NCBI GenBank assembly: GCA_028284365.1
Contig: JANQRW010000005.1
Span: 1 to 44,145 of the forward strand
Origin: Marinicella sp.
GTDB taxonomy: Bacteria; Pseudomonadota; Gammaproteobacteria; Xanthomonadales; Marinicellaceae
Reading direction: 5' to 3'
DNA length: 44,145 bases
The notes under the pieces: model-generated
Told to the model about the DNA's origin: nothing
Databases searched by the model: none
The model's input: the letters and a program-made list of their open reading frames with translations, nothing else
Position numbers and translations under genes: made by a program
Shown: one piece after another, positions 16,945 through 24,517 of the stretch
Position numbering within the stretch: position 1 is the first letter of the stretch
Layout of the letters: every line of letters begins with the position of its first letter

Positions 16945-17439
16945 ATGTCTCATTCATCCCTACTCACTTTAGAACCGTTATCAAAAGATGACAGAGTTTT
17001 GTTTGTTGGTATATATACTGATCCTGATACGATGAAACACATCGGACCTGCGCTCAAAAAAAATAAGGCTCTGGAGCTGTTTGAGAATGTGACCACTAAA
17101 AAGGACCGAAATCTATTTTACATCATCAGAAAAACACAAAATAAAGCTTCTTTAGGGGTCATTGGACTTATGAAAAACCATAAGAGTCAATCAGGCCATG
17201 AGTTGGGGGTGATGATTCTGAATAAATACAAAAATTTAGGATACGCCTACAAAGCCACAAGAATTCTTGTTAACTATGCATTTGATGAGTTGGGAGTACC
17301 ATCAATTGTTGTTTTCTGTCAGCTAGACAATGCTGGCGCAAACAGAATCGCTGAAGCGTTGGGCTTTAAAAACCAAGGTGTAGAGATTAATCCAAAAACA
17401 AATGTAAAAAGCATCAAATGGGAAATAATTCGTGAATAA
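16945..17439 (+). CDS. GNAT-family N-acetyltransferase
   Basis: The 164-residue product has the fold pattern of RimJ/RimL-type GNAT enzymes, which transfer acetyl from acetyl-CoA to an amine. It shows a beta strand GHELGVMILNKYKNLGYAYKA, where NLGYAYKA fills the acetyl-CoA pyrophosphate loop. The late family motif DNAGANRIAEALGFKNQG follows. ATG 16945 was chosen for its AAAGGA ribosome-binding site; ten upstream in-frame codons are unconvincing. The stop overlaps the methyltransferase start by 8 bases, so the two are probably co-translated. Inference: it may acetylate the peptide product of the locus, or protect the host, but the substrate is unknown. Confidence 0.85.
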   Translation: MSHSSLLTLEPLSKDDRVLFVGIYTDPDTMKHIGPALKKNKALELFENVTTKKDRNLFYIIRKTQNKASLGVIGLMKNHKSQSGHELGVMILNKYKNLGYAYKATRILVNYAFDELGVPSIVVFCQLDNAGANRIAEALGFKNQGVEINPKTNVKSIKWEIIRE

Positions 17440-18223
17440 TTCAAAAGAACAGTCAATAGGTAGCTTGGTTAATGTAGGACTTGGTATGACCCTTGGGTCA
17501 CACATCACGCCACTTTCCAGAAACTACATAGAAAAAGCCGATGTGGTATTTGTGGCTGCTTCTAACAACATAGTCGAACAATGGGTTCAAGGAATGAATG
17601 ATGATGTTAGAAGCTTGCAGCAGTATTACAGTGAAGGCACTTCTCGAATGATCACTTATCGGAAAATGGTTGATGTGATCATGTGTGAAGTGAGGGCAGG
17701 AAAAAAGGTTTGTGGTGCATTTTATGGTCATCCTGGTGTATTTGCCTGGGCGCCGCATGAGTCTATTAAACAGGCCAGGAAAGAAGGCTACAAAGCGCAT
17801 ATGGAAGCAGGGGTCTCAGCAGAAGATTGTCTTTATGCAGATCTTGGCATTGATCCTGGTAAATATGGTTGCACACACCTTGAGGCCACTCAGTTTATGT
17901 TCCGCAATAAAACATTTGATCCAACATCTTATTTAATTTTATGGCAAGTTGGCATTGCTGGAGACAAAAGCCTTACAAAATTTTCAACACCTGCTAAATA
18001 TAGACAAGTGTTGGTTGACTTGTTGTTGAAAACTTATTCTAAGGATTTTGAAATTATTCTGTATGAATGCGCTGTTTTACCCATTGAAAAGACCGTCATT
18101 AAAAAGATCAAACTGATTGAATTGGTGCATGCTGAATTAAGTTTGAAGACCACTGTGGTTTTTCCTCCTTATGAAAAAAGTGTTCTTAACAATGACATGA
18201 TCAAAATGATAGAAAACTTGTGA
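17432..18223 (+). CDS. Borosin-type peptide backbone alpha-N-methyltransferase (SonM-like)
   Basis: This 263-residue protein belongs to the tetrapyrrole-methylase fold and resembles SonM of Shewanella, which methylates backbone amides of a separate precursor peptide. Landmarks that align from memory with SonM are IGSLVNVGLGM near the N-terminus, LQQYY at 62-66, R72 and Y76 in SRMITYRKMV (the Tyr/Arg/Tyr active-site set of borosin enzymes), FYGHPGVFAW near 97-106, and VSAEDCLYADLGIDPGKYG. The C-terminus ends MIKMIENL with no fused core peptide, so it is the split type. Start is GTG at 17432, overlapping the acetyltransferase stop; no closer start codon is available. Cobalamin-pathway methylases share the fold, but LQQYY and YGHPGVF with a peptide gene downstream favour borosin. 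Confidence 0.9.
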   Translation: MNNSKEQSIGSLVNVGLGMTLGSHITPLSRNYIEKADVVFVAASNNIVEQWVQGMNDDVRSLQQYYSEGTSRMITYRKMVDVIMCEVRAGKKVCGAFYGHPGVFAWAPHESIKQARKEGYKAHMEAGVSAEDCLYADLGIDPGKYGCTHLEATQFMFRNKTFDPTSYLILWQVGIAGDKSLTKFSTPAKYRQVLVDLLLKTYSKDFEIILYECAVLPIEKTVIKKIKLIELVHAELSLKTTVVFPPYEKSVLNNDMIKMIENL

Positions 18224-18392
18224 ATGCTATGTTACGATAATTTTAAAGGTCAATGAGCTCAAGAGATTTCAAAACTTATGATCATTGTGAATAAAAATGC
18301 TGTATCCAACAGTAAATTCACCTTGTAAGTTTTGCTCTGGTTCTTCATGGACATATGTATTTTTCCCCAATAACAACTTAAAAGAGGTAGGT

Positions 18393-18572
18393 ATGAATGT
18401 TGAAATAAAAAATTTAGAATTAATTGGTCAAAATTCTTCTCTCAAACAACATGGGAATTTGGTTGAAATGTTAGCAGACTTAGGAATTGCAAAAGACTCA
18501 ATCAAAAGCATTCAGAAGAAGGAGTTTGTTTGTGCTCTTGTACCTGATGACGACGATGATTCAGAGGCTTGA
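18393..18572 (+). CDS. Candidate split-borosin precursor peptide (59 aa)
   Basis: The 59-residue peptide begins 169 bases after the methyltransferase gene with a strong ribosome-binding site (AAAGAGGTAGGT) before ATG 18393. Residues about 17-42 read as helical (GNLVEMLADLGIAKDSIKS), comparable with the helical borosin-binding leader of SonA (GLTDEQINAVM-like). The end EFVCALVPDDDDDSEA is a short hydrophobic block followed by five aspartates. In SonA the hydrophobic stretch near the C-terminus is the methylated part, so FVCALVP is the inferred core. The frame is open upstream to an ATG at 18297, adding 32 residues with a CKFC pair. That start has no ribosome-binding site, so I prefer 18393. 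Confidence 0.8.
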   Translation: MNVEIKNLELIGQNSSLKQHGNLVEMLADLGIAKDSIKSIQKKEFVCALVPDDDDDSEA

Positions 18573-18619: not shown

Positions 18620-20407
18620 ATGAGAATTAAGTACGCTATACTTGTTGTGTGCCTACTTTCTTTTTGTGTAAACTCAGAAACTGCTGACCTTTCGCTAAAC
18701 TCCACTGAAAGATCAGCATTAAGTGGAGATGAAATTGATCGCTTACTCTCACAAACCGATGCGATCAGAACCAGCGATTTTGTTACATTTACTAAAAACT
18801 TATCTGAACTCTCTGCAATAAAAAATAGCTTTTCAGAAAGCCAACTCTGTTTTTACCGTTTCCTTTCAGCATATAAACTTGGGTTAAGTGGAGATGTCGA
18901 ACAATCGATTCAGCAACTGCAGGTTATAAAAGAAGATTGCGAGTATTTGTCAATCACCATCCGAGTTGAGTCGTTATTGGCAAACATATATGCAATTTCA
19001 GGCGATTACCAAAAGGCTTTGACCAGTTTAGACAACATATTGTCTCAGATTGATAACGTCAATGATCAAGCACTTAAATTATTAATCTACTCGACGGCCT
19101 ATGTGGTCTACGATTTAGTTAATCAAAACCAGCTAAGCCTGGACTTTTCTCAACTCGTTATCGACCAGAAGCCTTCCCCAAAACAGTGGTGCAAAGCGTC
19201 TGTCTATAAGTACGTTGCTCTCATTAATTTAAACCAGCTTGGAATTAAAGAAACTGAAATTGCAGAGGTATTGAATCATTGTCGCCAACAAAGTGAAAAT
19301 ATTTATGCACAAGTTTTAAATGTTAACTGGATAGATTATCAACTTAAAAAGGCTGAATCGAAACAAGAAACGAATTTAATACATCAGAGTTTATTGGCAT
19401 CAGATGATTCCATCGTAGCCACCAGATACAAAAACTTGATTGTTTTCAAGGACAGTCTTATGGCTCGAATTTTAGAAAAATTGGGCAGATATGAAGAAGC
19501 TGTTGAATTTGCGAAGAAGGCATTAGAAGGAAGTGCATCTTTGGGTAATTCACAGCAAAAAATTGATGCACTTGATGTGCTGATTAATTATCACCAAAGC
19601 ACCCAAAGTTATAAAGAAGCCAATGATTATTTGTTGAAGAAAAACCTAGCTAAAATTAGATATTACTCAGACAAACAAGAAAAGTTAATGGCCTATCAAA
19701 CCATCAAACATGACAGCATGGCAAAATCCCACCGAATAGACTTTCTTAATCAGCAAAATGAAGTGTTGGTACTGGAGAAAGAATTGGCTGAAAAATCAAA
19801 AGCCAATCAATTGTTATTAAATTATCTGTTTGCTTCAATAGCTGTTTTGTTGTTGTATATAGGCTACAGAATTAAGAAACAACAAGAAATTTATAAGTCT
19901 CTGTCTGAAATGGATCACATGACAAAAATATACAATCGTAAGGGTATGAAGGATTATATGGAACACATGCTTCCCTATTCGCAAGAGAAAGAAGAAACCG
20001 TTGCTTTTGGTATCTTCGATTTGGACTTGTTTAAGAAAATCAATGACCAATATGGCCATACTGTTGGTGATTGGGTTATCAAATCAATCGTCAAGGCTTG
20101 TAAGGAACTTAATAATGAAAAGGCAACATTCGCCCGTTTAGGCGGTGAAGAATTTGCTCTTATCATGCGAGATTCAACATTAAATGATATTGCTGAATTT
20201 GCTGAAGCATGTCGATCCGCTATTAATTCCATCGAAACAGTATATGAAACAGGTCACCAATTTCATATTTCGGCGAGTTTTGGTATCACCACGACTCAAA
20301 TTTCTGGATACAACTTTTCCCGCTTAATGAACGATGCTGATGATGCGTTGTATGAGTCAAAAGAAAATGGCAGGAATCAGGTGACTGTTTACAGGACAGC
20401 CGCTTAA
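18620..20407 (+). CDS. TPR-containing membrane diguanylate cyclase
   Basis: The 595-residue protein has a signal peptide (about 1-19) and a long alpha-helical TPR-like periplasmic region with recognisable repeats (GDYQKALTSLDNI; GRYEEAVEFAKKAL). A coiled coil near 365-395, one membrane span at about 397-416 and a C-terminal GGDEF domain follow. The active-site motif is GGEEF (508-512), a functional variant, so it probably makes cyclic di-GMP. The RxxD inhibitory site normally five residues upstream is absent (NEKATFARL), so product inhibition is likely lost. It lies 47 bases after the peptide gene on the same strand, but a link to the RiPP locus is unproven. Confidence 0.88.
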   Translation: MRIKYAILVVCLLSFCVNSETADLSLNSTERSALSGDEIDRLLSQTDAIRTSDFVTFTKNLSELSAIKNSFSESQLCFYRFLSAYKLGLSGDVEQSIQQLQVIKEDCEYLSITIRVESLLANIYAISGDYQKALTSLDNILSQIDNVNDQALKLLIYSTAYVVYDLVNQNQLSLDFSQLVIDQKPSPKQWCKASVYKYVALINLNQLGIKETEIAEVLNHCRQQSENIYAQVLNVNWIDYQLKKAESKQETNLIHQSLLASDDSIVATRYKNLIVFKDSLMARILEKLGRYEEAVEFAKKALEGSASLGNSQQKIDALDVLINYHQSTQSYKEANDYLLKKNLAKIRYYSDKQEKLMAYQTIKHDSMAKSHRIDFLNQQNEVLVLEKELAEKSKANQLLLNYLFASIAVLLLYIGYRIKKQQEIYKSLSEMDHMTKIYNRKGMKDYMEHMLPYSQEKEETVAFGIFDLDLFKKINDQYGHTVGDWVIKSIVKACKELNNEKATFARLGGEEFALIMRDSTLNDIAEFAEACRSAINSIETVYETGHQFHISASFGITTTQISGYNFSRLMNDADDALYESKENGRNQVTVYRTAA

Positions 20408-21667: not shown

Positions 21668-21753
21668 AAACGAATTGAATCAAGACAGAGGACATTGGAT
21701 GAAAGTGCCAAGCAATCATTCACTGGATCCTGTTGGGTCTTTATTTATGTAGT

Positions 21754-21828
21754 TAAGGAATGTCTTTTGGTCTTCGGTCTCTGTTCCAAACTCGACTCTA
21801 CCTCCTGCATCCTTGCAGTCGTCATTCA
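21754..21828. repeat. 75-bp intergenic repeat, copy 1
   Basis: This segment recurs at 24420-24494 with the same length. The last 60 or so bases (from GGTCTTCGGTCTCTG to the CGTCATTCA end) are identical, and the first 15 vary slightly. The minus strand reads through as NDDCKDAGGRVEFGTETED in one frame in both copies, but no start or gene context supports a protein. It lies in the 241-base gap between the aspartic protease and the TPR-like gene. Confidence 0.85.
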
Positions 21829-21908
21829 AATTTGCGTTGCACTGAGCTAAGTCGAAGTGTTCCCGACTAATTTGAAAGCAACCACTACGCACTGTTATCA
21901 GTGTTGAG

Positions 21909-24419: not shown

Positions 24420-24494
24420 TAAGGAATGCTATTGGGTCTTCGGTCTCTGTTCCAAACTCGACTCTACCTCCTGCATCCTTGCAGTCGTCATTCA
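24420..24494. repeat. 75-bp intergenic repeat, copy 2
   Basis: This is the second full copy of the element at 21754-21828, in the same orientation, near-identical over its whole 75 bases. It lies in the 505-base gap between the pilin-like gene and ssb. Its right end runs into an 11-bp inverted repeat. The remainder of the gap (about 24600-24749) shows a weak 5-bp GGCTG/CAGCC hairpin and no gene. Confidence 0.85.
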
Positions 24495-24517
24495 TTTTTG
24501 TTCCCTACAAAAATGAA
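24491..24517. repeat. Perfect 11-bp inverted repeat beside repeat copy 2
   Basis: TTCATTTTTGT (24491-24501) and ACAAAAATGAA (24507-24517) are exact reverse complements around a 5-base loop TCCCT. The hairpin overlaps the last four bases of repeat copy 2. It is AT-rich and lacks a T-run beyond the stem, so it is not a standard terminator. It may be the boundary structure of the mobile repeat. Confidence 0.6.

Follow-up and report, generated by a model that had tools for sequence, protein, structure and literature searches.

A gene cassette of Marinicella sp. appears to encode a split borosin, and the peptide that it yields may be a signal read by a sensor encoded next to the precursor gene. 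The cassette lies in a stretch of 44,145 nucleotides that was analysed as a whole and is termed here the window (contig JANQRW010000005.1 of assembly GCA_028284365.1). Assignment of the window locus to the type IV split borosins is well supported, with the chemistry predicted from the genes. The reading favoured here, with a probability of roughly 0.58, is that the type IV split-borosin cassette is coupled to a dedicated sensor and that the mature peptide would be the ligand of this sensor's TPR domain. A role as a signal is suggested because the precursor gene usually adjoins a membrane sensor gene in relatives. We infer the TPR sensor to be the receptor from gene linkage, fusions, exchange of the output domain and paired divergence.

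The features of the cassette are collected in Table 1. The start of the methyltransferase (MT) gene overlaps the stop of the GNAT gene by 8 bases. Open reading frames ahead of the cassette are presumably ftsA, ftsZ and lpxC. The original prediction confined the borosin locus to positions 16945-18572. The genes placed there are present, but the segment is too short; a downstream TPR-GGDEF protein and a pepsin-like protease were missed, and these two change the likely biology. A scan for promoters and terminators returned sites that are not in excess over shuffled sequence. An anti-phage defence system was considered and ruled out, as 0 of 5 proteins matched PADLOC models at E 0.01. A dispersed short repeat is found at 21700-21900 and also near 24420-24500; a 201-base query gave 49 matches in the window's genome, and one copy is situated upstream of a second precursor-sensor pair of that genome (L127, 4566-4682).

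Table 1. Features of the split-borosin cassette in the window
Feature	Position	Strand	Details
GNAT acetyltransferase (Acetyltransf_3), 164 aa	16945..17439	+	ATG at 16945; PF13302, E 6.6e-24
SonM-type borosin alpha-N-methyltransferase (MT), 263 aa	17432..18223	+	GTG start; PF00590, E 7.3e-16
AGAGG, Shine-Dalgarno-like, of the precursor gene	18383..18387	+	by eye; 5 bases ahead of ATG
Borosin precursor, 59 aa	18393..18572	+	ATG at 18393; relatives and leader profile match
Precursor parts			leader 1-44, putative core F45-P51, acidic tail D52-A59; presumed leader/core boundary
Putative core FVCALVP (residues 45-51)	18525..18545	+	alignment of precursors
TPR-GGDEF diguanylate cyclase, 595 aa, membrane	18620..20407	+	domain models and hydropathy
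Pepsin-like (A1) aspartic protease, 418 aa	20411..21667	-	PF00026, E 1.9e-14

The best PDB match of the MT is SonM (7ltc; 225.6 bits, E 6.9e-66), followed by dbOphM/OphMA (E 1e-47 to 1e-43). Residues Y58, R67, Y71 and Y93 of SonM correspond to Y66, R72, Y76 and Y98 of the window enzyme, counted along the PDB-match alignment, and these four residues are invariant in 16/16 aligned MT sequences. The roles of the residues in SonM catalysis are treated in the available part of PMC8429565. The alignment to SonM, together with the lack of a fused core in the 263-aa protein, bears out the initial proposal of a SonM-like MT with a Tyr66/Arg72/Tyr76 pattern and without a core of its own. A precorrin or diphthine methylase, which the same proposal had named as one outcome that would speak against it, was rejected: PF00590 denotes the superfamily only, and the best solved homologues are borosin MTs. 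The NCBIfam models YabN and cobM_cbiF reach 47 bits and 15.8 bits against cut-offs of 525 and 259.65, respectively. The locus is therefore classed as a split borosin because the closest relatives of its MT are SonM and then OphMA, and because the leader profile matches SonA-type leaders. It displays a separate MT homologous to SonM/OphMA, the active-site residues and an adjacent discrete precursor with a related leader, as expected of type IV. Two tandem MT domains within one frame of 540-545 aa were also observed elsewhere, at L108 (G087:C52) and at G166:C345.

The 59-residue peptide does have its own ribosome-binding site, as had been predicted; AGAGG is found five bases ahead of the ATG. 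The C-terminus was expected to be hydrophobic, which is correct for the short FVCALVP stretch, but the acidic sequence DDDDDSEA follows. A conserved peptide next to the MT gene was likewise anticipated, and the same leader motif and tail are found beside the MT in the loci of relatives. When 181 loci were searched as 23,080 segments, an iterated profile picked up 205 such peptides, spread over 159 of the loci; these counts and the relatives beside the MT rule out a chance open reading frame. A Pfam match of the peptide to PARP_reg (E 0.022) is under the cut-off and was disregarded. Peptides of the window type share the motif LExxGQxxSLKQ, followed by a short stretch with Cys and Pro and then an acidic tail. 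In an alignment of 32 precursors, Cys47 and Pro51 are each kept in at least 90% of the sequences. Proline-rich C-termini are seen in the precursors of three other loci (L062, L077 and L207).

Leader profiles of the window type and the SonA type match each other with an hhalign probability of 95.8 (E 7.9e-9). SonA itself is recovered from the PDB (E 3.9e-6) by a profile that includes two SonA-like rows, but not by one without these rows and not by the window peptide alone. The window leader is about a dozen residues shorter than those of the longer relatives, with the gap ahead of the core. Residues 1-44 are probably a short relative of the borosin binding domain, as judged from these profiles.

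MT homologues are present in 94 of 200 genomes of the order and in 53 of 60 genomes of the genus Shewanella. Across the phylum they were detected in 15 of 398 genomes, 14 of which belong to the same class. The comparison of gene neighbourhoods drew on 80 MT loci from the order, on 20 stretches picked for their sensors or proteases or for a missing MT, and on 80 named loci. To these were added 40 loci out of 75 MT places in Shewanella and 9 from other groups. From the first three sets and the window, 24 of 181 loci were dropped as duplicates on the basis of shared protein ends, which left 157. A strict same-strand count, which excludes 8 MT loci and 3 GGDEF genes for their position at contig edges, places a GGDEF gene near 117 of 130 non-edge MT loci; 13/130 fail. 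For a broader count of 177 loci, the Shewanella loci were added, edge loci were kept, either strand was accepted and L277 was left out as a duplicate of L221. Here a GGDEF gene is found within 2.6 kb of the MT in 168/177 loci. The rough expectation for a random gene is ∼2% (18 GGDEF genes in the 3.11-Mb genome of the window), and since the loci are related and the number of GGDEF genes differs by genome, probabilities based on independence overstate the case.

The linkage extends to the precursor, which lies directly upstream of 141/177 non-edge GGDEF genes with a median gap of 12 nt; upstream of the remaining 36 no precursor was detected. The order MT-precursor-GGDEF is found in 40/40 Shewanella loci, which were divided by eye into 21 of the SonA type and 19 of the window type; in two of them (L260 and L292) the GGDEF frame is broken. 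An unsupervised clustering of neighbours in 81 loci produced a GGDEF cluster in 64, an MT cluster in 57 and a GNAT cluster in 30, with the next largest in 12. Among the nine loci from other groups, a GGDEF protein of the TPR-GGDEF family is near the MT in five (L297-L300 and L302), four of these with a precursor. One further locus of this set, L305 (G288:C199), showed neither a GGDEF nor a precursor neighbour. Its distant MT forms the N-terminal part of a 1174-aa frame that has no other Pfam domain. Around a single MT in L079 (G080:C10:35364-47089) five TPR-GGDEF genes are clustered, possibly an expanded receptor array.

The cyclase has a hydrophobic N-terminus, a predicted periplasmic TPR sensor at about residues 21-397, a transmembrane segment at 398-416 and a GGDEF domain at 430-587 (PF00990, E 6.8e-39). 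The signature GGEEF at 508-512 is intact and is invariant in 30/30 aligned proteins. Cys191 and Cys221 are also invariant, in the same 30/30 and in 40/40 Shewanella proteins. The GGDEF domain is present in 30/30 homologues; the Pfam models for TPR detect only some of these proteins at E 0.001 (TPR_12 in 9/30). By hydropathy only, an N-terminal hydrophobic segment and another at 330-470 are displayed by 28/30 aligned homologues. The topology and the invariant cysteine pair would fit a periplasmic sensor.

An ordinary type IV split borosin might instead act outside the cell, as an antimicrobial, a metallophore or a public good, and the cyclase might sense another cue and merely time production or biofilm growth. 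MT and precursor are indeed homologues of known split-borosin components, and a cyclase in the operon may simply co-regulate. We consider this explanation unlikely, as three findings run against it. One is that the sensor half co-occurs with the MT: among the 200 genomes of the order, 73 carry both, 5 the sensor only, 21 the MT only and 101 neither, i.e. an MT is found in 73/78 sensor-bearing genomes and in 21/122 genomes that do not have the sensor half. The five sensor-only genomes, with no MT detected, are G038, G059, G093, G118 and G177; in G093 a peptide-like open reading frame upstream of the cyclase appears degenerate by eye.

Exchange of the output is the second finding. In three loci (L301, L303 and L304) the output is swapped to a hybrid histidine kinase and the TPR sensor stays, adjoining an MT and a precursor-like open reading frame. 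These kinase sensors have the same N-terminal layout and match the sensor profile at E 2.7e-14 to 5.1e-18. However, the match has a large composition bias and the three sensors are without the cysteine pair, and the kinship may therefore be a mere generic TPR likeness. Their precursors score only 14-17 bits.

The third finding is that 7/141 precursor-sensor pairs have no MT of at least 150 aa detected in the examined stretch. One of them, L127, is from the genome of the window, and two more, L128 and L129, are from sister genomes, which have an MT elsewhere. Several of the seven sit close to the end of a contig or on a short one, and one (L139) has a 93-aa MT fragment. In L127 (G000:C10:4000-16000) a second precursor precedes a tandem pair of TPR-GGDEF genes, with no detectable MT nearby. 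MT-like stretches spotted there by eye were set aside for want of tblastn support; a GNAT-like stretch is supported (tblastn E 1.1e-6).

Divergence of precursor and sensor was compared in 16 loci with at least two pairs. Rank correlation gave no significant result: the observed value was reached in 646 of 2000 within-locus swaps. A quartet statistic, picked after the rank-correlation test had failed, was reached by 0/1000 within-locus swaps, and by 7/1000 for Marinicella alone and 17/1000 for Rhodanobacteraceae alone. Whether whole peptides or only the cores were used, the quartet test was passed; the automatic cutting of cores was wrong for at least 4 of 33 pairs (one each in L077, L160, L161 and L218). 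Joint duplication of neighbouring genes, with no binding between the products, could also yield the quartet result.

The nearest solved chain of the GNAT protein is 3fbu, 'Acetyltransferase, GNAT family' (E 6.6e-8). In 71/177 loci the MT has a GNAT homologue within 1 kb. By core type, as assigned by a text pattern, these are 65/96 loci with Cys-containing acidic cores, 1/22 with acidic cores without Cys, 0/50 with SonA-like or other cores and 5/9 with no detected precursor. This distribution fits a tailoring role but does not single out an acceptor, and the acetylated product of the initial proposal would be one possibility. Whether the GNAT is instead a self-protection enzyme or an unrelated passenger is a question apart from that of signalling, and either role is rather doubtful. 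Spermidine and diamine acetyltransferases are among its solved relatives, which would agree with self-protection or a passenger, and no GNAT was found within 1 kb of the MT in 106/177 loci, including 31/96 with Cys-containing acidic cores. On the other hand, 65 of the 71 GNAT loci have Cys-containing acidic cores, 23 of the 24 MT loci with a protease nearby also carry a GNAT, and in the window the GNAT and MT genes overlap.

The pepsin-like protease has both D(T/S)G catalytic motifs, DTGSS and DSGSS, and by eye no signal peptide. Its best PDB matches are beta-secretases (E 5.5e-13). The gene was found in 20/200 genomes of the order; an MT accompanies it in 18 of these, and the sensor in all 20. 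In Shewanella loci of the window type, a protease homologue is situated upstream of the MT in 17/19. Lee and co-workers are said to have reported in 2024 that shewasin A matures a borosin precursor.

Regulation might also be wholly intracellular. The precursor or its leader would then be a subunit that controls an MT-cyclase complex from the cytosolic side, with methylation as a mark of state and no released product. Gene fusions point in this direction: in L091, L102 and L111 the TPR, GGDEF and MT parts form a single protein with a precursor adjoining each, and the MT part comes after the GGDEF domain, in a region predicted to be cytosolic. No exporter was identified among the larger neighbour clusters, which were the ones annotated; beyond GGDEF, MT and GNAT no cluster exceeds 12/81 loci. 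Shewasin D, a relative of the protease, is mainly cytoplasmic according to the available part of PMC4814920, so that the peptide would still need a route to a periplasmic sensor. An intracellular role is nevertheless improbable, given that the invariant cysteine pair of the partner lies in its predicted periplasmic region and that a protease near the MT in 24/177 loci suggests a released core.

In the favoured model, in which the TPR sensor would bind the mature peptide, the leader would dock on the SonM-type enzyme, and backbone amides in FVCALVP are likely to be methylated, judging from homology. The adjoining pepsin-like protease could plausibly release the modified core, although a protease homologue is close to the MT in only 24/177 loci. 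Tailoring of Cys-containing acidic cores by the GNAT, perhaps through acetylation of the new N-terminus, is a plausible further step. The comparative genomics suggests that the mature peptide then reaches the periplasm, where it would bind the TPR domain of its own diguanylate cyclase and switch c-di-GMP synthesis. The conserved unit would be the precursor plus the TPR-sensor protein, and the MT may serve it in cis or in trans, or as a part fused to the sensor. The bacterial split borosin would thus be a signalling peptide with c-di-GMP as the usual output and, rarely, a phosphorelay.

The closest known system is SonM/SonA of Shewanella oneidensis (PMC8429565, in the part available), which has a separate MT, a small precursor, the same active-site residues and a related leader. 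A GGDEF gene is also next in line in all 21 SonA-type Shewanella loci examined. The window system differs in its leader, shorter by about a dozen residues, and in a side-clamp loop that is 3 residues shorter than that of SonM. Its core has Cys, Pro and an acidic tail. The window has in addition a GNAT and a pepsin-like protease, and neither is found near the MT in 50 loci of the SonA-like or other type.

Contact between borosins and GGDEF domains is not wholly new. The legend of Figure 1 in PMC11395268, on borosin architectures, names a GGDEF-containing domain, and a GGDEF-bearing architecture is to this extent already in print. We would guess that it refers to fusions like those of L091, L102 and L111. 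In the window, by contrast, the MT and the TPR-GGDEF protein are encoded by separate genes that flank the precursor gene. The available portions of PMC11395268 contain nothing on sensor pairing, kinase variants or signalling. Beyond this legend, a literature search, with the main borosin papers of 2022-2024 outside it, did not find a link between borosins and diguanylate cyclases.

The protease resembles the shewasins in its A1 family membership, its two D(T/S)G motifs and the lack, by eye, of a signal peptide (PMC4814920, in part). Marine bacterial homologues have Ala after the Gly of the second motif (PMC4814920, same part), whereas the window protease has DSGS. In the window its gene lies past the cyclase and on the other strand; in window-type Shewanella loci the homologue is upstream of the MT. 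By its motifs, the window protease is an A1 relative and not a shewasin proper.

Peptide-responsive regulators with TPR domains are known from Gram-positive bacteria as the RRNPP family. Both systems pair a small ribosomal peptide with a TPR sensor encoded alongside. The RRNPP regulator is cytosolic, whereas the TPR domain described here is predicted to be periplasmic, on a membrane cyclase or kinase, and the peptide would be a borosin.

There is perhaps an even chance that the gammaproteobacterial split borosins as a class are signalling peptides, each precursor beside its own TPR receptor and with c-di-GMP, occasionally a phosphorelay, as the output. Backbone methylation, joined in one branch by GNAT capping and pepsin-type cleavage, would then produce a protease-resistant ligand. 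Provided that every precursor is encoded within a few bases of its own membrane receptor, function can be tested by single-gene deletions and a c-di-GMP reporter. Should the proposal be true, a ribosomal backbone-methylated peptide would join the inputs of c-di-GMP signalling, and the rare pepsins of bacteria would in part be explained.
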